A DNA stretch of 64,000 nucleotides, taken from contig LNEW01000186.1 of assembly GCA_001464375.1 (NCBI GenBank), positions 1-64,000 on the forward strand, given 5' to 3'. The notes beneath the pieces are model-generated. The model saw nothing but the letters and a program-made list of their open reading frames with translations, was not told where the DNA came from and did not search any database. Shown piece by piece: positions 49,703 through 64,000 of this stretch (the first letter of the stretch is position 1; each line of letters starts with the position of its first letter). Source of the stretch: Rhodospirillales bacterium Ga0074136. Its GTDB lineage: Bacteria; Pseudomonadota; Alphaproteobacteria; Acetobacterales; Acetobacteraceae. The position numbers were made by a program, and so were the translations under genes.

Positions 49703-51028
49703 CTACTCGATGCGCGGCAGCGCGATCTGGCCCTGCGGGTTCGACGTACGGGTGCCGCCGCCGATGCGGGTGTGCACGATCTCGACCGACTCGCCGAAGA
49801 AGTCCACGCGGCGCGCCTCGAACTGGTCGCCGCGGTCATCCTGCCAGCGCAGCGTGGACCCGCTGACCGTCGCGCGGTGGCGGCTCCAGGCCGGCGGCAG
49901 GCCGTCCGAGAAGCCGCGGGGCGACCCGACGCCAGCCGCCAGCAGCACGTCGGCCACGCCGGCCGCCGCATCCACCGAGAGCACGAACAGCATGTAGTCC
50001 CGCCCGGTCCGGTTCCACCGCGCGCTGCCGCCCCAGGCGCCGAGCAGCGGATGCGCGCCGCGGCCGGTGCCCGCGGCCGCCAGGTCGGGCGGCAGCGGAA
50101 TGCCCTGCCGGTCGGCCACCTGCCGCGCGGCGGCGAAGGCCAGCACGGCGCCGGCGGGCGGCGCGACCGGCAGTGCAGCAGGCGCCGGCCCGCGTGGCGG
50201 CACCACGACCGGCGGCGCGGCAGGCGCCGGTATGGCCGCCAGGGGCGGCGGCGGCGCGGTCGGCCCGCGCCCTGGGCGCAGCACCACCTCGGTGATCAGG
50301 CTGCTGTTGTCCCAGGGCACCTGCTGCCCGCCCGTTGCTTCAACGACCGACCGGCGCACGCGCGTCATCAACTGGCGGATCTCGAGGCCAGGCGTGGCCA
50401 TGTGCTGCAGCAGCGCGGCCGCGAAGGGGCTGTTGCGCCCCGCGCCATCCTGCGCCACCGACCCCGGGCTGGTGGAGAACGCGATCAGCGTCCCGAGGTC
50501 CACCGCATCCACCTGCGCCAGCCCGCGCCCGATCGACCGGCTGCCCGACAACCCGCGCACCTGCGCCGCGAGCGGATTGTCCCGGCACGCATCCAGGATG
50601 AGCACCCGCGTCCGTGCCCCCTGCATCGCGCGGGTGACGAGCTGCAGGGAGACCAGTTCGTAGTCCACGTCCCGGGCATGAGCCAGCCGGGCATCGACCG
50701 GCAGGAGGTAGTTCTCGCCGCCGACCTGGATGCCATGGCCTGCGAAATAGAACAGCGCCAGCTCCGCCTGGTCTGCCGATTGGCCGAAGCGGCGCAGCGC
50801 GGCACCGAGTGCCTCCCGCCCCGCATCGCGCACCAGCTCGACCGAGAAGCCGGCGCTGCGCAGCGCGCCCGCCACGGCCGCCGCATCCGCGCCCGGATTG
50901 GCCAGGCGGGGAACGGCGGCATAGGTGCCATTGCCGATGACGAGCGCGACACGCTGCGCCGATGCCGGCAGCACCGTGGCAGCCAAGGTCAGCAGGAGGA
51001 TGATCAGGATGTGGCACGGCCTGCGCAT
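49703..51028 (-). CDS. Secreted caspase-family (C14) peptidase
   Basis: The 441-residue product has a signal peptide (ILIILLLTLAATVLPASAQ) and a caspase-fold domain with the catalytic His in FYFAGHGIQVGGENYLLP (His98) and Cys in LILDACRDNP (Cys148). A Pro/Ala-rich linker (about residues 275-320) leads to a C-terminal beta-rich domain with WGGSARWNRTGRDYMLFVLS. It belongs to bacterial metacaspase-like peptidases, often specific for Arg/Lys. Its target in the periplasm is unknown. Confidence 0.9.
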   Translation of the reverse strand: MRRPCHILIILLLTLAATVLPASAQRVALVIGNGTYAAVPRLANPGADAAAVAGALRSAGFSVELVRDAGREALGAALRRFGQSADQAELALFYFAGHGIQVGGENYLLPVDARLAHARDVDYELVSLQLVTRAMQGARTRVLILDACRDNPLAAQVRGLSGSRSIGRGLAQVDAVDLGTLIAFSTSPGSVAQDGAGRNSPFAAALLQHMATPGLEIRQLMTRVRRSVVEATGGQQVPWDNSSLITEVVLRPGRGPTAPPPPLAAIPAPAAPPVVVPPRGPAPAALPVAPPAGAVLAFAAARQVADRQGIPLPPDLAAAGTGRGAHPLLGAWGGSARWNRTGRDYMLFVLSVDAAAGVADVLLAAGVGSPRGFSDGLPPAWSRHRATVSGSTLRWQDDRGDQFEARRVDFFGESVEIVHTRIGGGTRTSNPQGQIALPRIE

Positions 51029-51212
51029 GGCGGTCGCCTCCCGGCACGGGATCACTGTTGGGTGATACTACCCGGTTCGCGCTCAAGTTGCCGGAAATTA
51101 AGGTGCCTGCCACCACAGGGAGAGACGTGGCCTGCCATGTTTACCGGGTCGCGGCGGCTTATTCCCGGCAGGCCGCTGCTCGACTGGCCCGGTCTTCGGA
51201 GCGGGTTCTTGG

Positions 51213-51247
51213 GGCCGGCTGGTTCACTCCAGCCGGCCCTTATTTTT
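51213..51247 (+). terminator. Intrinsic terminator oriented on the plus strand
   Basis: A perfect 10-base stem (GGCCGGCTGG paired with CCAGCCGGCC, loop TTCACT) is followed by CTTATTTTT, a textbook rho-independent terminator on the plus strand. It overlaps the minus-strand hyfI stop codon, where the hairpin lacks a T-run in the hyfI direction. No plus-strand gene ends here; the nearest, DUF1489, ends 1.5 kb upstream. Confidence 0.8.
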
Positions 51248-51773
51248 GTCCGGGTGCTGCCTCGGCTTCGATCAGCGCCAGCAGCCCCTCGAGCAGTTGC
51301 GCCGGCGAGGGCGGGCAGCCGGGGATCAGCAGGTCGACCGGCAGCACGGCGCCGACGCCGCCTTCCACCGCATAGGATCCCTTGAACACGCCGCCATCCA
51401 CGGCGCAGTCGCCGGCTGCCACCACCCAGCGCGGTTCGGGCGTGCAGTCCAGCGCGCGCTGCAGCGCCTCGGTCATGTTGCGACAGGCCGGGCCGGTCAC
51501 CAGCAGCACATCGGCATGCCTGGGCGAAGCGACGAAGCGCAGCCCGAAGCGTTCGAGGTCGTAGGCGACATTGGCCAGCGCGTTCACTTCCAGCTCGCAG
51601 CCGTTGCACGACCCGGAATCGACTTCGCGGATCGACAGGCTGCGGCCCAGCCGGACGCGCGCGCTGGCGGCCATGCGCTCGCCCAAGGCGACCACGGTGT
51701 CCTGTGGGGCGGCCGCGGCCTGGTCGGTCAGCGGGCGGCCGACCAGCGCGCGCACCAGGCGGGGCCAGAGCAT
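51240..51773 (-). CDS. hyfI: Hydrogenase-4-like small subunit (HyfI/NuoB type)
   Basis: This 177-residue protein is homologous to HyfI/HycG and complex I NuoB. Its four cysteines for the proximal [4Fe-4S] cluster are retained: SCNGCE (Cys56, Cys59), GDCAVDGGVFKG (Cys123) and IPGCPP (Cys153). GGAG lies eight bases before the ATG. It is separated by 108 bases from the hyfG stop, the only real gap in the operon, and it is the last gene. It would pass electrons to or from the modified large subunit. Confidence 0.9.
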   Translation of the reverse strand: MLWPRLVRALVGRPLTDQAAAAPQDTVVALGERMAASARVRLGRSLSIREVDSGSCNGCELEVNALANVAYDLERFGLRFVASPRHADVLLVTGPACRNMTEALQRALDCTPEPRWVVAAGDCAVDGGVFKGSYAVEGGVGAVLPVDLLIPGCPPSPAQLLEGLLALIEAEAAPGQK

Positions 51774-51881
51774 CAGGTGCACTCCAGTGGGATCTGCGTC
51801 ATCACGCTCTCTCCGGCGCGATGCATTTTTTATCACGCACCCTCCGGCGCGATCGGCACAGCGCCCCTGGCGATGGGCCGC

Positions 51882-53393
51882 TCACAGGTCCACCCCGCTG
51901 TAGGAGCAGTTGAAGGATTTGTTGCACAGCGGGAAGTCGGCCACGATGTTGCCCTCGATCGCCGCTTCCAGCAGCGGCCATTGCAGCCAGGACGGGTCGC
52001 GCAGGAAAACCGCGCGGATCAGCCCCCCATCATCCAGCCGCAGCCAGTGCAGGCATTCGCCGCGGAAGCCCTCGACCAATGCCGCGCCCTCGCCGGCGCG
52101 GGCGGGCAGGGGGGCCAGCGTCGGGCCCTCGGGCAGTGCCATCAGCAGGCGGCGCACCAGGACGATGGATCCGCGCAGTTCGGCGATGCGCACGCGCACG
52201 CGCGCATCGACATCGCCGCCCGCCTCGACCGCCATGGCGGGTGCAAGAAGGTCATAGGGCGCGTAGCCCGGGGCGATGCGCGCATCGAAGCGCCGGCCTG
52301 ATCCGCGCCCGACGAAACCGCCGGCAGCGAAGCGCCGCGCATGCCCCGGGTCGAGGAAGCCGGTGCCCACCACGCGGTCCTGCAGGCTGGCGTGGCTGTC
52401 ATAGATGCGCAGCAGGGAAGGGATGTCCTGTTCGACGGCCGCCAGGGCGGCGAGGATTGCCTCGCCCCCGCCGGGTGCAATGTCCAGCGCGACGCCGCCG
52501 GGCAACACGCGGTCCATCATCAGCCGGTGGCCGAAGGCGGCGGCGCAGGCGCGCAGCACGCCTTCGCGCAGGAAGCCGCAGCGCGCATGCGGGAAGGCGA
52601 AGGCCGCGTCGTTGCACACGAAGCCCCAGTCATTGAGATGATTGTGGATGCGCTCCAGCTCCGCCATGGCGGCGCGCAGTGCCACGGCGCGCGGCGGCGG
52701 TTCCACGCCGAGCGCGGCCTCGGCGGCGGCGGCGAAGGCCCAGCCATGCGCGACGGTGGAATCACCCGACAGCCGCGCGGCGAAGGCGGCTGCCGCGCGC
52801 ACCGTCTTGCCCAGCATCAGCGACAGCGTGCCCTTGTGCTTGTAGCCCAGCCGCGCCTCCAGCCGGACCACGCATTCGCCCTGGATGTGGAAGCGGAAAT
52901 GCCCCGGTTCGATCACCCCGGCATGGATCGGGCCGACCGGGATGACGTGGATGCCCTCGCCCTCGACCGGCAGGAACTCCGGCTGCGGTGGCTCCGCGCC
53001 GGGGCGCGGCGCGGGGTTGCCCGACATCGGGCCGGCGATGCCCCAGCGGCCATGGTCGAGCCAGGGCCGGTCGTCGACCGCACCGTGCGCGACCAGTGCC
53101 CATAGGTCGCGGATGGCGCGTTCGAAGCGGATCGCGCCGGGCCGCGCCGGCGACAGCGCGGCATAGCGCCCGCCCTCGGCCGGGGCGGAGGCGAACAGAA
53201 TCGCACCGCTCTCCTCATCGAGGAACCCGGCGTGGACGACGCCCGGTTCCGCCCACATCCCGAGCAGCGCCAGCGCCGGTTCCGCCAGCAGCGCCGCGGG
53301 CAGTTCTGCCCAGGCCTCGGCGGTCAGCACGAAGCGTTCGAAGGGCTGCGCGCCCTGCGGCGTACCGCTGCGGATCAGGGCGAGCGCGCTCAT
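51882..53393 (-). CDS. hyfG: Hydrogenase-4-like large subunit lacking NiFe cysteines
   Basis: The 503-residue protein is homologous to HyfG/HycE, with a NuoC-like N-terminal part (about 1-140) and a NuoD-like part from VGPIHAGVIEPGHFRFHIQG onward. Where true NiFe hydrogenases have RxCGxC...H, this protein has ARLSGDSTVAHGWAF (207-220), with no cysteine. At the C-terminus, where DPCxxC should be, it ends FPLCNKSFNCSYSGVDL, again without the pair. It cannot bind a normal NiFe(CN)2CO centre. No endopeptidase cleavage tail follows. It overlaps hyfF by four bases. Confidence 0.9.
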   Translation of the reverse strand: MSALALIRSGTPQGAQPFERFVLTAEAWAELPAALLAEPALALLGMWAEPGVVHAGFLDEESGAILFASAPAEGGRYAALSPARPGAIRFERAIRDLWALVAHGAVDDRPWLDHGRWGIAGPMSGNPAPRPGAEPPQPEFLPVEGEGIHVIPVGPIHAGVIEPGHFRFHIQGECVVRLEARLGYKHKGTLSLMLGKTVRAAAAFAARLSGDSTVAHGWAFAAAAEAALGVEPPPRAVALRAAMAELERIHNHLNDWGFVCNDAAFAFPHARCGFLREGVLRACAAAFGHRLMMDRVLPGGVALDIAPGGGEAILAALAAVEQDIPSLLRIYDSHASLQDRVVGTGFLDPGHARRFAAGGFVGRGSGRRFDARIAPGYAPYDLLAPAMAVEAGGDVDARVRVRIAELRGSIVLVRRLLMALPEGPTLAPLPARAGEGAALVEGFRGECLHWLRLDDGGLIRAVFLRDPSWLQWPLLEAAIEGNIVADFPLCNKSFNCSYSGVDL

Positions 53394-54826
53394 CCGATCA
53401 CCCGTGCGGCCTGCATCAGCATCGCCGCCAGCGCCGTGGGCATGGCCAGCGCCAGGATGGCGGCCAGCGCCAGGTGCAGCCAGAGCGGCGCTGCCGCCGC
53501 CGCCTCGCGCCAGCCATTGGGCGCCGCTGCGGCATCGGGCGTCGGCGGGCCGAAGCACAGCGCCTGCAGCACCGTGACCAGGGCCGCCAGCGCCACCACC
53601 ATGCCGAAGGCCAGCGGCAAGGCGAGCCAGGGCATCTCCGCCGCCGCCACGCTGAGCAGCCGGAATTCCGACGCGAACAGCAGGAAGGGCGGCAGCCCCG
53701 CGATCCCTGCGATGGCCAGCGCCAGGCCCCAGCCCAGCGCGGGATGCGTGGACACCAGCCCGCCGATATCGGCGATCTTCTGGCTGCCCTTGGCCTGCGC
53801 TGCGCGCCCCACGCCGAAGAACACCGCGCTTTTCACCAGCGAATGGCCCAGCAGGTGCAGCAGCCCCGCCAGGTTCGCCGCAGCGCCCCCCAGGCCGAAG
53901 GCGAAGGCCGCCAGGCCCATGTGCTCGATGCTGCTCCAGCCGAAGAAACGCCGCGCATCGGCCCGCCGCCACAGCGCGAAGGCAGCCAGCAACACGGACG
54001 CGAGCCCCAGCGCCAGCAGGAACGGCCCCGGCGCGAGCGCCGCCGGGTTCGCGCCCACGATCGCCTTCGCCCGCAGCACCGCCAGCATCGCCGCGTTCAG
54101 CAGCAGCCCCGACAGCACCGCCGAGATCGGCACCGGCCCTTCCGCATGCGCATCCGGCAGCCAGGAATGCAGCGGCACGAGCCCCGCCTTGGTGCCATAG
54201 CCCAGCAGCAGGAAGGCGAAGGCCAGGTTCAGCGTGGCCGGGTCGCAGCGCGCCGCGACCTGCATCAGCGCCGCCCAGGACAGCCCCGTCTCCTCGCTCA
54301 GCAGCGGCTGCGCGGCCAGGTACAGCACGATGGTGCCGAACAGCGCGAGCGCGATGCCCACGCCGCACAGGATGAAGAACTTCCACGCCGCCTCAAAGGC
54401 CGCCGGCGTGCGATGCACCGCGACCATGGACACGGTGGCGAGTGTGGCGATCTCAACCGCCACCCACATGACGCCGAGGTTGTCGGCCAGCAGGGCCAGC
54501 GTCTGCGCCCCCATGAAGATCTGGTAGGCGGCGTGGTAGGCGCGGATGCGCCAATGGTCGAAGCCCTCCTGGTCGAGCGTCGCGGCGGAAAACACCGACG
54601 TCGTCAGCCCGACGAAGGCCGAGACCAGCACGAAGGGAATGTTCAGCGCATCCGTGCGCGTCCAGCCGTGTTCGGCAAACGGCATCGTCGCCAGCGCGAC
54701 GGCCAGCGCGAAGGTGCCCGCGCTGACCACGACATTGGCCGCCGTCGCGCGCCGCAAATCCGGGATCGCCGCGAGCGCCAGCGCGCCCACCCAGGGGAAG
54801 AAGACGATGATCCACTGCAGCGGCAT
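53390..54826 (-). CDS. hyfF: Hydrogenase-4-like antiporter subunit HyfF
   Basis: The 478-residue protein is a Mrp/NuoN-type antiporter-like subunit with about thirteen helices. The conserved glutamate helix WVAVEIATLATVSMVAVHR and the lysine helix LLGYGTKAGLVPLHSWLPDA are both present, so it probably moves ions. The later Lys/His-containing LGHSLVKSAVFFGVG also fits. It starts one base before the hyfE stop ends (TGATG) and overlaps hyfG. Confidence 0.9.
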   Translation of the reverse strand: MPLQWIIVFFPWVGALALAAIPDLRRATAANVVVSAGTFALAVALATMPFAEHGWTRTDALNIPFVLVSAFVGLTTSVFSAATLDQEGFDHWRIRAYHAAYQIFMGAQTLALLADNLGVMWVAVEIATLATVSMVAVHRTPAAFEAAWKFFILCGVGIALALFGTIVLYLAAQPLLSEETGLSWAALMQVAARCDPATLNLAFAFLLLGYGTKAGLVPLHSWLPDAHAEGPVPISAVLSGLLLNAAMLAVLRAKAIVGANPAALAPGPFLLALGLASVLLAAFALWRRADARRFFGWSSIEHMGLAAFAFGLGGAAANLAGLLHLLGHSLVKSAVFFGVGRAAQAKGSQKIADIGGLVSTHPALGWGLALAIAGIAGLPPFLLFASEFRLLSVAAAEMPWLALPLAFGMVVALAALVTVLQALCFGPPTPDAAAAPNGWREAAAAAPLWLHLALAAILALAMPTALAAMLMQAARVIG

Positions 54827-55494
54827 CAGCGCCGCTCCCCGCGATGTTCCTCGAGGCTGCCGGTGTCCAGCGTGTCGAAGCGCTCCCGGATCTGGAAGGC
54901 AAACACGCCGGCCACCACCGCGATCATCAGCACCAGCGCGGCGGTCGACAGCTCCACCACCAGCGGCATGCCAGCCACGCCGATCGCCGCCAGGATCAAC
55001 CCGTTCTCCAGGCTGAGCAGCCCGATCACCTGGCTGATGGCGTTGCGCCGGGAGATCATCATCAGCATGCCCAGCAGCACGACGGACAGCGCCAGCGCCA
55101 GGTTCTCCCGCGCCAGCGCCCGCACGCCCTCGGTGGCCGGCAGCACCACCAGGATGGACAACGCGACCAGCGCCACGCCCGCCACCAGGGACGGGCCGAT
55201 GCCGAGGGCGGTCTCGACCGTGCGATGCAGATCGAGGCGCCGCACGATGCCGTGCAGCGCGAGCGGGATGAGCACGCCCTTCGCCGCCATCGCCAGCACT
55301 GCCGTGACATAGAGCGCCGGCGCGCCCTGCGCATGCGCCGCCCATGCGGCTGCCAAGGCCAGCAGCGCGCCCTGCATGGCAAAGGCGTTGATCACCGCGC
55401 CGATTCGTCGCTGGTACAGCAGCACGAAGGACAGCAGCAGCACGCCGCCGCCCAGCAGATGCGCCACATCGTAGCCGAGCTGCCCGAAGCTCAT
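54826..55494 (-). CDS. hyfE: Hydrogenase-4-like subunit HyfE
   Basis: The 222-residue membrane protein resembles HyfE, which joins NuoK- and NuoJ-like segments: AAKGVLIPLALHGIVRRLD, SRRNAISQVIGLLSLENGLI, and five to six helices. It overlaps hyfF by one base and hyfC by four. It is a structural proton-path component, without redox centres. Confidence 0.88.
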   Translation of the reverse strand: MSFGQLGYDVAHLLGGGVLLLSFVLLYQRRIGAVINAFAMQGALLALAAAWAAHAQGAPALYVTAVLAMAAKGVLIPLALHGIVRRLDLHRTVETALGIGPSLVAGVALVALSILVVLPATEGVRALARENLALALSVVLLGMLMMISRRNAISQVIGLLSLENGLILAAIGVAGMPLVVELSTAALVLMIAVVAGVFAFQIRERFDTLDTGSLEEHRGERR

Positions 55495-56450
55495 GTCAGC
55501 CCCGTCGAGACGAACAGGTAGATCGCGCCCAGCAGCCCGAGCAGCAGCGCCGCGCCGAGGAATTCCGGCACGCGGAACACGCGCATCTTGGCGATCGCGC
55601 TCTCGAAACCCGCCAGCGCCAGGGCCAGCGCGCCCATCTTCGCGACCCAGGCCGCCAGCCCCACCACCCAGACATGCGGCGCCGCGCCCGCCGGCGCCTG
55701 GCCGAAGGGCAGGAACACTGCCGACAACAGCGCCAGCCACAAGGTCAGGCGCAGCATCGCCGCGTATTCCCACAGCGCCAGGTGCCGGCCGGAGGCCTCG
55801 AGGATCATTGCCTCGTGCACCATGGTCAGTTCCAGGTGCGTCGAGGGGTTGTCCACCGGGATGCGCGCATTCTCGGCGATCGCGACCGCGACCATCGCCA
55901 CCAGCGCCAGGCCGAGGGAGACGCGCAGCCCGAGCCCGCCGTCCCGGAAGGCCGCGGCGATGGCATCGAGGTTCGTGGTGCCCGCCAGGATCGCGAGCGT
56001 CAGCGCCGCCACCACCAGCGCCGGTTCGGCCAGCGCCGCGAAGGACATCTCCCGCGCCGCACCCAGCCCGCCGAAGGGCGTGCCGACGTCCATCCCCGCC
56101 AACGCCATCGCCACGCGACCGAGCGCGAGCAGCCCCGCCACCAGGATCAGGTCCGACAGCGGCGCGAACACCATGCCGCGCGCGAAGGACGGCACCAGCG
56201 CCGCCCCCGCGACCGCTGCCCCCACCGCGATGTAGGGCGCGGCGCGCGACACGGCGGATGCGTTCTCCGCCAGCACGGGCGTCTTGCGCAGCAGCTTCAG
56301 CAGGTCGCGCGTCGGCTGCAAAGGGTCGGCGCCGCGCCGGCCCATCATGCGCGCCTTAAGCCAGCGCACCACGCCGGTCAGCAGCGGGGCGGCGGCCAGG
56401 ATCAGTGCGATGTGCAGCGCCTGTGCGATGATGCCCCAGACCAGCGCCAC
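55491..56450 (-). CDS. hyfC: Hydrogenase-4-like membrane anchor HyfC (NuoH type)
   Basis: The 319-residue protein is the NuoH/HycD-type anchor: PLQPTRDLLKLLRKTPVLAE in the first cytoplasmic loop, and ENARIPVDNPSTHLELTMVH with the conserved acidic loop that meets the NuoD-like subunit. It starts with GTG, two bases after the hyfB stop, and overlaps hyfE by four bases (ATGA). Confidence 0.9.
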   Translation of the reverse strand: MALVWGIIAQALHIALILAAAPLLTGVVRWLKARMMGRRGADPLQPTRDLLKLLRKTPVLAENASAVSRAAPYIAVGAAVAGAALVPSFARGMVFAPLSDLILVAGLLALGRVAMALAGMDVGTPFGGLGAAREMSFAALAEPALVVAALTLAILAGTTNLDAIAAAFRDGGLGLRVSLGLALVAMVAVAIAENARIPVDNPSTHLELTMVHEAMILEASGRHLALWEYAAMLRLTLWLALLSAVFLPFGQAPAGAAPHVWVVGLAAWVAKMGALALALAGFESAIAKMRVFRVPEFLGAALLLGLLGAIYLFVSTGLT

Positions 56451-56451
56451 C

Positions 56452-58503
56452 TCAGCGCCCCCCCAGAACGGCGAGAAGCGCCAGCATCAGCACGACGGCC
56501 CCGAAGGTCAGGCCCAGGCATTGGCGGATCGACAGGTCGCGCAAGCGCTCCGCCTGCGTCGCCAGCGCCTCCCGCGCGCGCGGCAGCGGGCCTTCCAGCG
56601 CCACCAGCGCCGGGTCGTGAAAGCCGGCATCGAGCCGCGCCGCGCCGGTCGCGCCGGGCGGCGGCATGGTCACTGCCTCGCGTGCCGCGAGCAGGCTGGT
56701 TCCCAGCATCCGCCGCAGCGGCTGCCCGAAGCCGGCCGCCGAGGGCTGCGACGCCGGGTCTCCGAAGGGCAGGTGCGCCGGGGCGGCGATGAAGCCGCAA
56801 TCCCAGGCCGGCCCGCGCATGACGTGGCCGGGCGCGCCGAACCGCGCGACACCCCCCGGCGCGCGCCGCCGCACGAACCACAGCGCCGCACCGACCGCCG
56901 CCGCCAGCAGCAGCGCCACCAGCACTGGCCAGTAGCGCGCGCCACCCTCTGCCGCGCCGACCGACAGCACGCCCGCGCGCGGCGCGCCGGCCCCGGCCAT
57001 GAGGCGCAGCGCCGGCTCCGCCAGGTCGAGCAGCACCCCCGGCAGCAGCCCGAAAGCCACCGTCAGCCCGGCCGGCACCAGCAGCGCCCAGCGCGCCGCC
57101 CCGCCAGCCTCCTGCGCTCCAGCAGCGCGCGGCGTGCGCGGCCGCCCGAGGAACACCAGCCCCCAGAAGCGCACCATCGCCGCCGCCGCCAGTGCCGCCG
57201 CCAGCGCGGTCAGCGCCGTGGCCGCCGCCACGCCGATCTGGAACGGCAGGTCGCCCACGCGCCAGGCCGCCAGCAGCGCCTGCAGCAGCAGCCATTCCGA
57301 CGCGAAGCCCGACAGCGGCGGCAGCGCGGCCGCAGCACCCACCCCCACCAGCGCCGCCCAGGCAGTGACCGGCATGCGGTGGATCAGCCCGCCCAGCCGG
57401 TCGATGGCGCGTGTTGCCGCCCCGTGCAGCACCTCGCCCGCCGCCAGGAACAGCAGCGTCTTGAACACCGCGTGGTTCAGCGCGTGCAGAAGCGAAGCTC
57501 CAGAAGCCAACGCCGCCAGCGCCGGCAGGTCCGCCCCGCGAAAGGCCATCGCCAGCCCGAGCCCGATCGCGATCAGCCCGACATTCTCGATGGTGGAACA
57601 CGCCAGCAGTGTCTTGGTGTCGTCCTCGAGGTTCGCGCGCAACGCGCCGATCACCGCGGACGCCGCCCCCAGCGCAATCAACGGTGCCCCGAGCCAGAAG
57701 GGCTGCGCCGGGCCCATCAGGTCGAAGACGAAGCGCGCCAGCACGTAGAGCGCGACCTTGGTCATCGCCCCGGACATCACCGCCGAGACATGGCTGGGCG
57801 CGGCCGGATGCGCGAGCGGCAACCACACATGCAGCGGCGCGATCCCGGCCTTCGACCCCGCGCCCGCGATCACCAGCGCCAGCACCGCCGCCGCGCGCCA
57901 TCCCTCCGGCGGTGCGTCGCGCAGCACCGCGAAGGCAACATCGCCCGCGCCGCCCGCCAGCACGCCCAGCGCCAGGATCAGCGACAGCCCGCCGAACCCC
58001 GCGAAACCCAGGTAGATGCGTGCCGCGCGCCGGTTCGCCGCCTGGGCATCGTCATGCGCGACCAAGGCCCAGGAGGCCAAGGACATGGCCTCGAAGCCCA
58101 GGAGCAGGGTGAAGCCGTCCGCCGCCAGGATGGTCAGCGCCATGCCGGCCAGGAACAGCGGCCATGGCACCAGCAGCCTTGGCGCGACCGGACCATGCAC
58201 CCCGCCGAAAGCGAACAGGGAGGCACAGGCCGCCGACAGCCCCACCGGCAGCAGGAACCATGCCGAAAGCGGATCGAGCGCCAGCCGCGCTAGGCCCCAG
58301 GGCGGCCCGAAGGGCAGCGTCAGGCTGGACACCCCGCCCAGCAGCCCGGCCAGCCCGCCAGCCGCCAGCAGCAGCCCCGCCAGCGCCACGCCGCCATGCA
58401 CCACCCGCGCGCCCAGCACCGACCGCGAAAGCGGCCACGCAGCGACCCCGAGCACCACCAGGGCGCCGACCAGAAGGGCGAGGGCCGTCAGCACGGCCGG
58501 CAC
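56452..58503 (-). CDS. hyfB: Hydrogenase-4-like antiporter subunit HyfB
   Basis: The 683-residue protein is a NuoL-like antiporter subunit of about sixteen helices. LLLGFEAMSLASWALVAHDD carries the conserved Glu, and GAGSKAGIAPLHVWLPLAHP carries the Lys helix typical of ion-translocating antiporters. The length matches HyfB (about 670). The GTG at 58503 follows a GGGGTGA; it is the first gene of the operon and faces the TRAP genes across 267 bases of mutual promoter DNA. Confidence 0.9.
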   Translation of the reverse strand: MPAVLTALALLVGALVVLGVAAWPLSRSVLGARVVHGGVALAGLLLAAGGLAGLLGGVSSLTLPFGPPWGLARLALDPLSAWFLLPVGLSAACASLFAFGGVHGPVAPRLLVPWPLFLAGMALTILAADGFTLLLGFEAMSLASWALVAHDDAQAANRRAARIYLGFAGFGGLSLILALGVLAGGAGDVAFAVLRDAPPEGWRAAAVLALVIAGAGSKAGIAPLHVWLPLAHPAAPSHVSAVMSGAMTKVALYVLARFVFDLMGPAQPFWLGAPLIALGAASAVIGALRANLEDDTKTLLACSTIENVGLIAIGLGLAMAFRGADLPALAALASGASLLHALNHAVFKTLLFLAAGEVLHGAATRAIDRLGGLIHRMPVTAWAALVGVGAAAALPPLSGFASEWLLLQALLAAWRVGDLPFQIGVAAATALTALAAALAAAAMVRFWGLVFLGRPRTPRAAGAQEAGGAARWALLVPAGLTVAFGLLPGVLLDLAEPALRLMAGAGAPRAGVLSVGAAEGGARYWPVLVALLLAAAVGAALWFVRRRAPGGVARFGAPGHVMRGPAWDCGFIAAPAHLPFGDPASQPSAAGFGQPLRRMLGTSLLAAREAVTMPPPGATGAARLDAGFHDPALVALEGPLPRAREALATQAERLRDLSIRQCLGLTFGAVVLMLALLAVLGGR

Positions 58504-58770: not shown

Positions 58771-59319
58771 ATGCACGCGCTGCTCGGCTTCAGCCGCGGG
58801 GTGGATTGGGTGAACGCGCTGTTCGGCCGCGTGGCTGACTGGCTCGTGCTCTCGGCCTGCGCGATCAGCGCCGGCAACGCCGCCATGCGCTACGGCTTCT
58901 CGCTGTCGTCCAATGCGTGGCTGGAGGTGCAGTGGTACCTGTTTGCCGGCACCGTCATGCTGGGTGCGGCCTATACGCTGAAGCGCAACGGGCATGTACG
59001 CGTCGACATCGTCTATGGCTGGGTTGCGCCGCGCACCAGGCTGTGGATCGACGTGTTCGGCATCATCTTCTTCCTGATGCCGGCGATGCTGCTGCTGGCC
59101 TGGATGACCTGGCCCGTCTTCTGGGATTCCTGGATGCGCGGGGAGACCTCCGCCAATGCCGGCGGGCTGCTGCGCTGGCCGGTGAAGATCCTGATGCCGC
59201 TCGGCTTCGCCCTGGTCAGCCTGCAAGGCCTGTCGGAACTGGTGAAGCGCATCGCCGCCCTGCGCGGCATGGACCCGGCCGTCGTGCGGCTCGACGAATA
59301 CCAGCGGCCGGAACAGTGA
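58771..59319 (+). CDS. TRAP transporter small permease (DctQ type)
   Basis: The 182-residue protein has four membrane helices and the DctQ pattern SSNAWLEVQWYLFAGTVMLG and AAYTLKRNGHVRVDIVYGWV. It partners the large permease in a tripartite, sodium-driven uptake system. Its stop overlaps the large permease start by one base (TGATG). No DctP binding protein is encoded in the window. Confidence 0.92.
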   Translation: MHALLGFSRGVDWVNALFGRVADWLVLSACAISAGNAAMRYGFSLSSNAWLEVQWYLFAGTVMLGAAYTLKRNGHVRVDIVYGWVAPRTRLWIDVFGIIFFLMPAMLLLAWMTWPVFWDSWMRGETSANAGGLLRWPVKILMPLGFALVSLQGLSELVKRIAALRGMDPAVVRLDEYQRPEQ

Positions 59320-60731
59320 TGCCCTCGCTCGAGATCATGCCGGCGCTGATGTTCGGCGGCCTGGTGGTGTTCCTGCTGCTGGGCTTCCCGGTGGCCTTCA
59401 GCCTGTCCGCCGTCGGGCTGTTCTTCGGCTTCCTGTCGATCGAACTGGGCTTCTTCACCACCGCCTATCTCGGCAACCTGCCGCTGCGTGTCTTCGGCAT
59501 CCTGTCCAACGACCTGCTGCTGGCGATCCCGTTCTTCACGCTGATGGGCGCCATCCTGGAACGCTGCGGGTTGGCGGAGGATCTGCTGGAAGGTACGGGG
59601 CAGCTGTTCGGCAAGGTGCCGGGCGGGCTCGCCTATGCGGTGATCCTGGTGGGCGCTGTGCTGGGGGCCATCACCGGCACCGTCGCCGCGTCCGTCATCG
59701 CCATGGGCATGATCTCGCTGCCCATCATGATGCGCTACGGCTACGACATGCGCATCGCGACCGGCGTGATCGCGGCATCGGGCACCATCACCCAGGTGAT
59801 CCCGCCATCGCTGGTGCTGATCGTGCTGGGCGACCAGCTCGGGAAATCGGTGGGCGACATGTACGCCGGCGCGATCGGGCCGTCGGTCCTGCAGATCCTG
59901 CTGTTCCTGATGTTCATCGCCGGCGTGTCCTTCTTCGCCCCGCACAAGGTCCCACCCCTGCCGCCCGAGGCCCTGGCGCCGCGCGGCTGGCCCCTGTGGT
60001 GGCGCGTGATCAAGGGCATGGTGCCCTCGATCGTGCTGATCTTCCTGGTGCTCGGCACCATCTTCATGGGCCTCGCGACACCGACCGAAGCCGGCGCCAT
60101 GGGCGCGGTCGGCGCCGTCGGGCTCGCCATGATCAACGGCCGCTTCACCTGGAAGCTGCTGCGCGAAGCCATGGCCAACACCATGCGCATCACCGCCATG
60201 GTGATCTTCATCCTGATCGGCGCCACCGTGTTCTCGCTGGTGTTCCAGGGCGTCGACGGATCGCACTGGATCGAGGGTCTGCTGGCGCAACTGCCAGGCG
60301 GCCAGACCGGCTTCCTGATCTTCGTCAACATCTTCATCTTCTTCCTGGCCTTCTTCCTCGATTTCTTCGAGATCGCCTTCATCGTGGTGCCGCTGCTGGC
60401 CCCCGTGGCCGCCAAGCTCGACATCGACCTGGTGTGGTTCGGGGTCCTGCTGTGCATCAACATGCAGACGTCGTTCATGCACCCGCCCTTCGGCTTCGCG
60501 CTGTTCTACCTGCGCGGCATCGCGCCCAAGGAAGTGCTGTCGCGCGACATCTACTGGGGCGCCGTGCCCTGGCTGTTCCTGCAACTGCTGCTGGTCGCCA
60601 TCGTCATCTACTGGCCCGAAAGCGTGACCTACTGGCTCGACCGCGGCACCGGCGTGGACCCGGCCAGCGTGACCATCGACGCACCGCCGCCGCCACCGCA
60701 GGACGACAACGCGGTGCCGGTGTTCCGGTAG
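59319..60731 (+). CDS. TRAP transporter large permease (DctM type)
   Basis: The 470-residue protein has about twelve membrane helices and the DctM family pattern: NDLLLAIPFFTLMGAILERC, AVLGAITGTVAASVIAMG, IAASGTITQVIPPSLVLIV, and INMQTSFMHPPFGFALFYLR. It is slightly longer than most DctM proteins because of a proline-rich C-terminal tail. The substrate is unknown; mannitol/chloroaromatic-type TRAP systems look similar. Confidence 0.93.
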   Translation: MPSLEIMPALMFGGLVVFLLLGFPVAFSLSAVGLFFGFLSIELGFFTTAYLGNLPLRVFGILSNDLLLAIPFFTLMGAILERCGLAEDLLEGTGQLFGKVPGGLAYAVILVGAVLGAITGTVAASVIAMGMISLPIMMRYGYDMRIATGVIAASGTITQVIPPSLVLIVLGDQLGKSVGDMYAGAIGPSVLQILLFLMFIAGVSFFAPHKVPPLPPEALAPRGWPLWWRVIKGMVPSIVLIFLVLGTIFMGLATPTEAGAMGAVGAVGLAMINGRFTWKLLREAMANTMRITAMVIFILIGATVFSLVFQGVDGSHWIEGLLAQLPGGQTGFLIFVNIFIFFLAFFLDFFEIAFIVVPLLAPVAAKLDIDLVWFGVLLCINMQTSFMHPPFGFALFYLRGIAPKEVLSRDIYWGAVPWLFLQLLLVAIVIYWPESVTYWLDRGTGVDPASVTIDAPPPPPQDDNAVPVFR

Positions 60732-61833: not shown

Positions 61834-64000
61834 CTACTCCTGCATGACGTAGGTATAGAAGCGCACCGTGCCGTCGGGCTGCGCTTCGCGGTGCAGGCCC
61901 TGGACTTCGCTCTCGAAGCCGGGGAAGGCGTTGGCCGCGGCTTCGAAGGCGCGCAGGTAGTCGATCATGGGGCGTGCGCGGGCGGTCAGGCGTTCGCCGG
62001 GCACGATGGTCGCAATACCGGGCGGATAGACCACCCACAGCGTGGTCGCGATGCGGCCTTCGATCGCATCCAGCGGCAGGTAGTCCACCCGGTTGCGTGT
62101 GAGCGCGCGCACCGCCTCGTGCGGCGCCAGCGCGATCTCGGGCAGGTGTTCGGCGCGGAACTGCGCGCCCTGCATCGCGGACACGCCCGCCTCCCGGTAC
62201 AGCGCATGCATGCCCGCACACAGGTCGCGCAGCCGCATCCCGCCATAGCGCGCCGCGCGGCGCGCGACAAAGTCCGGGATCACCTCCTCCAGCGGGGCGT
62301 TCTGGTCGTGCAGCTTCTTGAAGGTGACCAGGTGCGACAGCAGCGTGCCGGCCTTGCTGCTCTCGACGCCGGGCGTCAGCAGGAACAGCAGGGAATTGAG
62401 ATCGTTCTTCTCGCACACGATGCGGTTCTGCCGGAGGTATTCCGCGACGACGGGGGCGGGAATGCCATGCGCGGCATAGGTGCCGGCCGCGCGGTCGAAG
62501 CCCGGCGTCAGCACCGTCAGCTTGTTCGGATCGGTCATCGCCCAGCCGGGTGCGACATGGCGGAAGCCGTGCCATGCCGCGCCCTCTCGCAGCTCCCACA
62601 GCGCCGGGTCGGTCGCCAGCGCATCGGTCGGCACTTCCTCCCATGCGATGTCGTGGCCGTCGATGCGGACGGTGTCGGGCACGAAGGGGTCGAAGAACCA
62701 TTGGCGGGCGGGGTTGCGTTCGGTCGCGGCGAGGTCGCGCGCGGTCATGCGCATCTTCTTCCGCAATTCGATGCCGAGGCGGATGGTGTCGTCCCACAGC
62801 ACCTCGCCCGACTTCCCCTTCATCATCTGCGCGCCGACATCGAGGCTGGCGAACAGCGGATAGAACGGGCTGGTCGACGCATGCAGCAGGAAGAACTCGT
62901 TGAAGCGGCGGTGCTCGACGCGCCGGCGCTGGTCGCCCAGGTGGCTGTCCTTCACATGGATCTGCGAGGCCTGGCTGAACGACGCCAGCTGCTTGTGGGT
63001 GGATTGCGTGACGATGATGCCGGGGCTGTCCGGCCCCAGGTTCTGCAGGCCCATCCCGAAGCGCCCGCGGAACAGCGGGTGGAACTTCATGAAGCCGGCC
63101 CAGGCCTCGTCGAACAGGATGTAGTCGCACAGGTGGCCGATGCGCTCGACGATCTGGTCCGCCGACAGGATGGTGCCGTCATAGGTGCATTGCTCGACCA
63201 CTGCGGCGCGGAAGGGGCGGGGCGCATCGGCGCGGGACTTGTCTGCCACCAGCGGATTGTCGCGGATGGCCTGGCGGATGGCGGCTTCGTCCAGCGCTTC
63301 CGGGCAGATCGGGCCGATCAGCCCGTGCAGGTTGCGGTCGGTTTCCAGATAGACGGGGATCGCCTGGCCGAGGAACAGCGCGCCGTGATGCGCCGCCTTG
63401 TGGTTGTTGCGGTCGAACAGCACCAGGTCGCCCTCGGCGAGCAGCGCCGAGAGCACGACCTTGTTGGATGTCGAGGTGCCGTTCAGCACGAAGTAGGTAC
63501 GCTCGGCGCCGAAGATCTCCGCGCTCGGCCGCGGCCGCCGGGCCTTCATGCGTCAGCAGGTCGCCCAGCTGCAGAACGGAATTGTCGAGGTCGTCACGGA
63601 AGATCGCCTCGCCCAGGTGTTCCACGAAAATCCGCCCGATCGGGCTGCGCCGGTAGAACACGCCGCCATTATGGCCCGGGCAGGTCCACAGCATGTTGCC
63701 CTGCTCGGCATAGTCGACCAGCGCGCCGAAGAAGGGCGTCTTCAGGCTGTCGGCATATTGCCGCAGCTTCGAGACCAGGTTCTTGGCGATGAAGTCCGGC
63801 GTCTCCTCGGCGAGAAACACGAAGCCGTCGACATCGTCCAGCACCTCGACCGGGATGTCTTCCAGCCGGTGGCGCCGCACCAGCAGGATGACCGGCACAT
63901 CGAGGCCGCGCTTGCGGGTCAGCGAGATCAGCTGTGCCGCGCGCCCCTGCAGCCCCTTCTTGCCCCAATCGACGATCAGGCAGCCGATCGCGGCATCGGT
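61834..64000 (-). pseudogene. Orn/Lys/Arg decarboxylase, frameshifted; 5' end beyond window
   Basis: This fold-type I PLP decarboxylase makes a polyamine precursor from ornithine, lysine or arginine. The larger part (from about 63540 down to 61834) contains FGAERTYFVLNGTSTSNKVV, FDEAWAGFMKFHPLFRGRFG and the PLP lysine region VTQSTHKQLASFSQAS. The N-terminal wing and start of the core lie in another frame (VILLVRRHRLEDIPVEVLDD ... LGDLLTHEGPAAAAER) and run off the window. The two frames join at about 63519-63540, where one base is missing or extra. Each half is well conserved, so the lesion is recent or an error. Arginine against lysine or ornithine preference is undecided. Confidence 0.85.

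Follow-up and report, generated by a model that had tools for sequence, protein, structure and literature searches.

What can a membrane complex built like hydrogenase 4 do once the cysteines that hold its nickel-iron (NiFe) centre have been replaced? This question is raised by an operon in the 64,000-nucleotide stretch of DNA analysed here (the window; positions 1 to 64,000 of contig LNEW01000186.1 from Rhodospirillales bacterium Ga0074136). Six genes on the minus strand, from 58503 to 51240, encode HyfB-, HyfC-, HyfE-, HyfF-, HyfG- and HyfI-like proteins; they are near-gapless from hyfB to hyfG, with 99 bases between hyfG and hyfI. Pfam and NCBIfam assign all six to the hydrogenase 4/complex I superfamily, and the six open reading frames (ORFs) and their families bear out the place and order given in an earlier reading of this DNA made without database searches (the sequence-only reading). 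Our results establish, at the level of sequence, the parts of the complex, its missing ligands, the retention of its iron-sulfur and pumping residues and a strong conservation. Judged from its homologues, the complex is real and well conserved, and it is a further member of the energy-converting hydrogenase related (Ehr) complexes, ordinary for its kind and not a new kind. Our favoured reading of its function, a quinone-linked proton pump formed by the six subunits, is a tentative one that we place a little short of an even chance.

The large subunit and its replaced NiFe site

Alignment with HycE and HyfG of Escherichia coli, both taken from the K-12 record, shows that RVCGICGFAH in the references corresponds to RLSGDSTVAH in the large subunit of the window, and DPCYSC to NCSYSG. 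The four NiFe ligand columns, all cysteine in the E. coli proteins, are occupied by S209, S212, S497 and G500. The window protein stops at D502-L503, and HycE and HyfG continue for about 30 residues more; in group 4 hydrogenase large subunits this C-terminal extension is cleaved on maturation. The ligand columns were then counted in 168 distinct proteins drawn from the loci retrieved (some genome matches gave no locus), a set that includes the window protein and excludes E. coli HycE and HyfG, which were caught by the same search. The first column is Ser in 163, Cys in 2, Ala in 2 and Val in 1; the second is Ser in 135, Thr in 21, Ala in 9, Met in 2 and Cys in 1; the third is Ser in 159, Ala in 5, Asn in 3 and Thr in 1; and the fourth is Gly in all 168. 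A single cysteine at one ligand column was found in 3 of the 168 proteins and a cysteine pair in none, which upholds the claim of the sequence-only reading that the large subunit has lost both pairs. The substitute residues are themselves conserved: Asp211 is present in 168/168 proteins (Ile in HycE/HyfG), Lys492 in 167/168 (Gly in HycE/HyfG), Asn495 in 167/168 (Asp in HycE/HyfG) and Asp502 in 168/168. On these alignments, the NiFe site is replaced by what is predicted to be a conserved polar site. No description of these replacement residues, or of the HyfC insertion reported below, was found in the available parts of the literature searched.

That reading proposed an alignment with HycE, HyfG, EchE, NuoD and known Ehr proteins, and a tree for placing the large subunit. 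In a maximum-likelihood tree of 76 Ehr-type proteins with HycE, HyfG and two NuoD proteins, the Ehr-type proteins form one clade (100/99) apart from HycE/HyfG (100/98), with some long branches flagged (L187, L191b and others). Of the maturation genes, only HypA and HypD were sought, and neither had a match in the source genome, which is 93% complete. HypD was found in 1/35 genomes of the same genus and in 8/32 genomes of the class that carry the complex, where it may serve other hydrogenases. We are highly confident that the complex is not a hydrogenase, since it has no NiFe ligands, HypA is unmatched, HypD occurs in just one of the 35 genomes of the genus and the clade stands apart from HycE/HyfG; with no nickel site, it should not make hydrogen. 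The four cysteine ligands and the C-terminal extension that mark group 4 [NiFe] hydrogenases are missing here, and HypA and HypD had no match. What the operon does have are homologues of group 4 hydrogenase subunits, a large subunit without CxxC motifs and Mrp/NuoL-type antiporter-like subunits, as expected of an Ehr complex, and its filing as an Ehr-type non-hydrogenase holds. The placement rests on the motif, the subunit set and the tree against HycE, HyfG and two NuoD proteins, and the published Ehr complexes are likened to it by description.

Ehr complexes were already known, as the sequence-only reading had said, and several papers describe them. The defining ones are reportedly Coppi 2005 and Marreiros 2013. 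Six syntenic genes of Sulfobacillus, whose large subunits lack RxCGxC and DPCxxC, were named Ehr-like in 2014 without an assigned function (PMC4378227), and comammox Nitrospira has an Ehr complex without CxxC (PMC10284858). Rv0081-Rv0087 of the tuberculosis complex has been described as homologous to EHR complexes and judged to be no functional hydrogenase (PMC6728331), and the mycobacterial operon is elsewhere still termed a putative hydrogenase (PMC6901956, PMC2799521); it is placed under Rv0081, itself part of the DosR hypoxia regulon (PMC6901956). As far as the available parts of these accounts go, the Ehr complexes of mycobacteria (the Rv0082-Rv0087 hyc operon), Sulfobacillus, Geobacter and comammox Nitrospira have the same Hyf-like subunit set as the window, those of Sulfobacillus and Nitrospira likewise have large subunits without the two CxxC motifs, and none of the accounts cited gives an activity for Ehr in those parts.

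The operon shares HyfB, C, E, F, G and I homologues with E. coli hydrogenase 4/formate hydrogenlyase-2 (hyfA-R), and its large subunit is 27% identical to E. coli HyfG, but it lacks counterparts of HyfA, HyfD, HyfH and HyfJ, and its large subunit has neither NiFe ligands nor the C-terminal extension. The closest solved relative of the large subunit by sequence is subunit 5 of E. coli formate hydrogenlyase (7z0s_E, E 7.5e-49). Chain L of the Pyrococcus membrane-bound hydrogenase (6cfw) and chain L of the sulfane reductase (6u8y) match at E 4.4e-32 and 1.4e-9; in both of these complexes the subunit set is a different one that includes a NuoI-like ferredoxin subunit. A structure model of the window protein (mean predicted local distance difference test score, pLDDT, 82; predicted template modelling score 0.87) was compared with solved structures by Foldseek, and 7z0s_E was again the best match (E 3e-23), followed by NuoCD of complex I. 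The complex shares with respiratory complex I the large-subunit fold, as well as a homologous cluster-bearing small subunit and the same pumping residues, but the operon lacks NuoA, E, F, G, I and J, and the small subunit has CxxC where that of complex I has a tandem CC.

Cluster, pumping subunits and spread

Apart from the ligand columns and substitute residues above, conservation is counted by locus rather than by distinct sequence, among the loci that cover each residue. The cysteines C59, C62, C126 and C156 of the HyfI-like protein are all kept in the window, as had been claimed for the four [4Fe-4S] ligands; three of them, C59 and C62 included, are present in 102/102 loci and the fourth in 101/101. 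The small subunit, whose closest solved relatives are MbhJ (6cfw_J) and subunit 7 of formate hydrogenlyase (7z0s_G), is expected from these ligands to carry one [4Fe-4S] cluster. That would be the single cluster encoded, since an NADH module, a formate dehydrogenase and a NuoI/HycF ferredoxin subunit are all absent from the operon; the last of these absences goes unmentioned in the sequence-only reading.

The membrane part is conserved to a similar degree. In HyfF, E125 is kept in 102/103 loci, K213 in 102/104, N244 in 102/104 and E387 in 102/105; Asn244 occupies the position of the lysine in transmembrane helix 8 of NuoM and is Asn in E. coli HyfF as well. In HyfB, E138 is kept in 94/94 loci, K218 in 98/99 and E403 in 103/104. 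K249 is found in 83/99 loci and is Asn in the other 16, and the other pumping residues are conserved in at least 97%. The statement that the antiporter subunits keep their charged helices was thus borne out at E125, K213 and E387 of HyfF and at E138, K218, K249 and E403 of HyfB. The HyfC-like subunit contains a three-residue insertion that is not present in E. coli HycD, HyfC and NuoH, the references aligned; in the stretch that holds it, M210, H212 and E213 are found in 96/96 covering loci and T209 in 94/96.

The large subunit was matched in all 35 genomes searched of the genus, in 32/385 sampled genomes of the class and in 62/398 of the phylum (the latter two at E 1e-60, own genome counted). 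Plasmid records matching it numbered 85, of which 60 were listed and 8 examined, and the hosts among the matches listed include 31 Rhizobium, 12 Azospirillum, 6 Cupriavidus and 6 Burkholderia. All six genes were matched in 91/106 loci. Six annotated plasmid records and 17 loci from other Proteobacteria have the order B-C-E-F-G-I, although one of the 17 is cut off before hyfI. On a Rhodococcus plasmid the order is I-B-C-E-F-G, with hyfI first, unlike the Proteobacteria looked at, where the small-subunit gene is last. We take Rv0082 to be the mycobacterial small subunit. If so, the Rhodococcus order matches the mycobacterial one as it stands in the available table (PMC6901956).

A possible quinone-linked pump and its alternatives

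A redox step coupled to ion pumping can reasonably be proposed from the retention of the cluster ligands and the pumping residues. In the mechanism that we tentatively prefer, a soluble donor would reduce the single [4Fe-4S] cluster in HyfI, and the electrons would pass to a quinone, or to another small two-electron acceptor, in the cavity between HyfG and HyfI that is occupied by NiFe in hydrogenases and by quinone in complex I. The reaction would then drive proton translocation via HyfC, HyfE, HyfF and HyfB. Beyond the alignments, we infer redox activity, quinone as the partner, the direction in which electrons move and H+ as the ion translocated. The large subunit does keep two residues that we take to belong to the quinone site of complex I: H186, which aligns with the quinone-site His, in 106/106 loci, and D262 in 105/106.

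A reduced genome of the same class gives this proposal a context. G204 has about 0.9 Mb at 33% GC and is listed as 100% complete; it shares a family with the 3.4-Mb genome G077, and the HyfG proteins of the two are sisters in the tree (100/99). The hyfB, hyfE, hyfF, hyfG and hyfI frames of G204 are open, as is hyfC on either side of the contig end that divides it, and both Ehr contigs have a genome-like GC content (35%). Its nuoB, nuoC and nuoD are remnants with stops, and the sole PF00346 match in searches of the whole genome is the Ehr gene; such searches found no COX1, no HypD and no match to the formate dehydrogenase alpha family TIGR01591 at 1e-100. E. coli baits for cydAB, ndh, nuoA, nuoEFG, nuoI and rsxABCDG found nothing in its 894,073 bases (2,873 of them N). 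The genome does have MenA (TIGR00751, 143.9 bits against a cut-off of 102.15) and matches to SdhA/FrdA, SdhB/FrdB and the alpha and beta subunits of ATP synthase. Retention of the complex after loss of complex I, with no oxidase found and beside genes of quinone metabolism, including a menaquinone enzyme, fits and favours a quinone-linked pump. A more far-reaching version, which we consider possible but doubtful, sees the six-subunit Ehr without ligands as a minimal proton pump that is linked to quinone, stands alone and can replace complex I in anaerobic fumarate respiration; it would have a single Fe-S cluster and, in the place of NiFe, an Asp/Lys/Ser/Asn site. If this is true, G204 would subsist on a donor together with Ehr, menaquinone and a fumarate reductase. 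The conserved replacement residues and G204 together suggest testable ideas on the electron acceptor and on the minimal needs of a complex I-like pump.

Several results weigh against a quinone-linked pump. The quinone-site tyrosine, as we presume it to be in NuoD, is Gly in the HyfG-like protein. The structure model has pLDDT below 50 at residues 136-186, 481-489 and 497-503. Part of the site, its C-terminal half, falls within these segments, and the model is too unsure there for the distance between Asp211 and Lys492 to be measured. Electron entry is left unexplained by an operon without a NuoI/HycF-type subunit or an NADH or formate module: neither the NuoEFG input module nor NuoI was present among the operon genes and the ten flanking ORFs scanned, no Fe-S or NADH module was seen in those ten ORFs, an aldo/keto reductase lies further away, and no recurrent redox family was seen near the operon in 80 loci with crude ORF calls. 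The evidence from G204 comes from one draft genome. No anchor subunit turned up there with FrdC and FrdD of E. coli as baits, and searches for aceEF, pflB, PFOR, pta-ackA and sucAB-CD were likewise negative, both within the limited sensitivity of such baits. Moreover, an ordinary NuoD is also present in three of the four carriers searched (the source genome, where it sits on another contig, G077 and G326), so Ehr is not simply a substitute for complex I.

Among the alternatives, the one that survives best, although we consider it rather unlikely, is a formate- or carbon monoxide (CO)-linked Ehr, in which a separately encoded dehydrogenase would dock on HyfI and pass electrons to quinone. TIGR01591 matches at 1e-100 are found in 29/32 carriers of the class against 195/353 other genomes, Geobacter Ehr has been described as more abundant with formate (PMC7894505), and an association of formate dehydrogenase with Ehr has been proposed in Margulisbacteria (PMC6349859), as far as the available parts of both papers go. 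However, with two candidates scored per genome, 195/385 genomes exceed the family cut-off and 224 match at 1e-100, so that some of the matches lie below it; Ehr occurs with no TIGR01591 match in G204 and G077, both listed as 100% complete, and in G326 (78% complete); and no such gene was seen to recur beside the operon in the 80 loci. CoxL-type matches are similarly associated (28/32 carriers against 163/353 others), and just 15/385 class genomes pass the CO-dehydrogenase cut-off. Because of this parallel, the co-occurrence, given here in raw counts that ignore kinship and genome size, probably reflects genome size and lifestyle.

Less probable still is a reverse mode, in which the ion gradient would drive quinol electrons uphill onto ferredoxin or another acceptor of low potential. 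This has been proposed for other complex I relatives in the part of the account available (PMC3578206), and the ordinary NuoD of the source genome, G077 and G326 speaks for it, but the operon has no ferredoxin-binding subunit and no oxidase that could sustain the gradient was found in G204. Also improbable, and somewhat more so, is a non-redox ion transporter or antiporter for pH or Na+ homeostasis with HyfG and HyfI in a structural or sensing role only. HyfB and HyfF do fall within the Mrp/NuoL antiporter superfamily, and a single cluster without a donor subunit would suit such a role; however, the four cluster ligands and most of the large-subunit site are invariant, and a scaffold would need neither. 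Decay of a hydrogenase operon, or faulty sequencing, would account for the missing cysteines but has next to no probability, as a substitute motif common to 168 distinct proteins is neither decay nor a sequencing slip, the six frames are open, the proteins form one well-supported clade and the complex is kept throughout the genus.

Operon layout and gene neighbourhood

The window has a GC content of 71%, and its best named matches, Neoroseomonas nitratireducens and Roseomonas sp., point to the Roseomonas group of the Acetobacteraceae. Two of the six proteins pass an NCBIfam cut-off, the HyfF-like one with the hydrogenase 4 subunit F model and the HyfI-like one with a NuoB subfamily model; the remaining four fall short. 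The start of hyfB is likely, though not certainly, the GTG at 58503.

Table 1. Position of the operon genes, short motifs and flanking genes in the window, and of the loci noted in G204
Feature	Coordinates	Strand	Details
hyfB-like antiporter subunit	56452..58503	minus	683 aa; PF00361, E 4.5e-44; NCBIfam hydrogenase 4 subunit B, E 9e-173 (below curated cut-off)
hyfC-like (NuoH family) subunit	55491..56450	minus	319 aa; PF00146, E 9.5e-33
hyfE-like membrane subunit	54826..55494	minus	222 aa; PF00420 weak, below cut-off; hydrogenase 4 membrane subunit, E 1.6e-19, below cut-off
hyfF-like antiporter subunit	53390..54826	minus	478 aa; PF00361, E 8.8e-44; NCBIfam hydrogenase 4 subunit F, above cut-off
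hyfG-like large subunit	51882..53393	minus	503 aa, without NiFe ligands; PF00346 and PF00374
hyfI-like small subunit	51240..51782	minus	180 aa; GTG start (ATG at 51773 possible); PF01058, E 5.7e-32
TMVHE of the HyfC-like subunit	55812..55826	minus	residues 209-213; stretch with three-residue insertion
RLSGDSTVAH of the large subunit	52746..52775	minus	residues 207-216; replaces RxCGxC...H; adds Asp211
NKSFNCSYSGVDL of the large subunit	51885..51923	minus	residues 491-503, the C-terminus; replaces DPCxxC; adds Lys492
SCNGC of the small subunit	51597..51611	minus	ligands C59 and C62; both Cys in 102/102 loci
Caspase-domain gene (Peptidase_C14)	49706-51055	minus	downstream of the operon
TRAP transporter genes dctQ and dctM	58771-60728	plus	divergent; on the other flank of the operon
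Orn/Lys/Arg decarboxylase	61837-63898	minus	over two frames
Ehr operon kept and nuoB/C/D remnants, G204	L206:5306-6370 and L222

Neighbouring genes were surveyed in 80 named loci, mostly of Alphaproteobacteria, with a crude ORF caller that leaves some antisense ORFs. Of the families found in at least three loci, ten were named by Pfam (HTH_3, ABC_tran, DctM, DUF1489, response regulator, DctQ, Tex, a weak methyltransferase match, GARS and CoA-transferase) and others were judged by eye. A helix-turn-helix regulator is present in 21/80 loci, directly upstream of hyfB in 17; a DctM transporter occurs in 12/80, mostly in Roseomonas relatives, and an ABC ATPase family is scattered across 14/80. Control by FNR/FixK was considered and rejected: with 9 stretches dropped for short contigs, 15/94 stretches upstream of hyfB had a box with at most two mismatches, and so did 11.7% of stretches drawn at random from the same loci, which is no enrichment. 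The whole window contains 17 such near-sites, where shuffled versions average 4.3, and none lies in the upstream region of the operon. A link to the low-oxygen locus of Burkholderia, first suspected because of neighbours like a universal stress protein, was dropped as well, as the available parts of the accounts of that locus name no such complex.

The tripartite ATP-independent periplasmic (TRAP) transporter genes and the caspase-domain gene of the window lie on opposite flanks of the operon, and a caspase-family gene is also found near the Ehr operon on the Rhizobium plasmid pRL11 (L185:1-3831). Further out, the decarboxylase is divided between one ORF with profile positions 1-72 and the N-terminal domain and a next one with positions 76-416 and the C-terminal domain; the split is a frameshift or an assembly error. 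On a Methylovirgula plasmid (L189:1-6135), annotated F-type ATP synthase genes directly adjoin the Ehr operon. A Variovorax plasmid (L191:1003-3215) carries a second, diverged Ehr-type set next to an ordinary one; the N-terminus of its small subunit resembles a 4Fe-4S ferredoxin, by eye and by annotation, and the C-terminus of its large subunit reads NKSFDLSYCGNDL.

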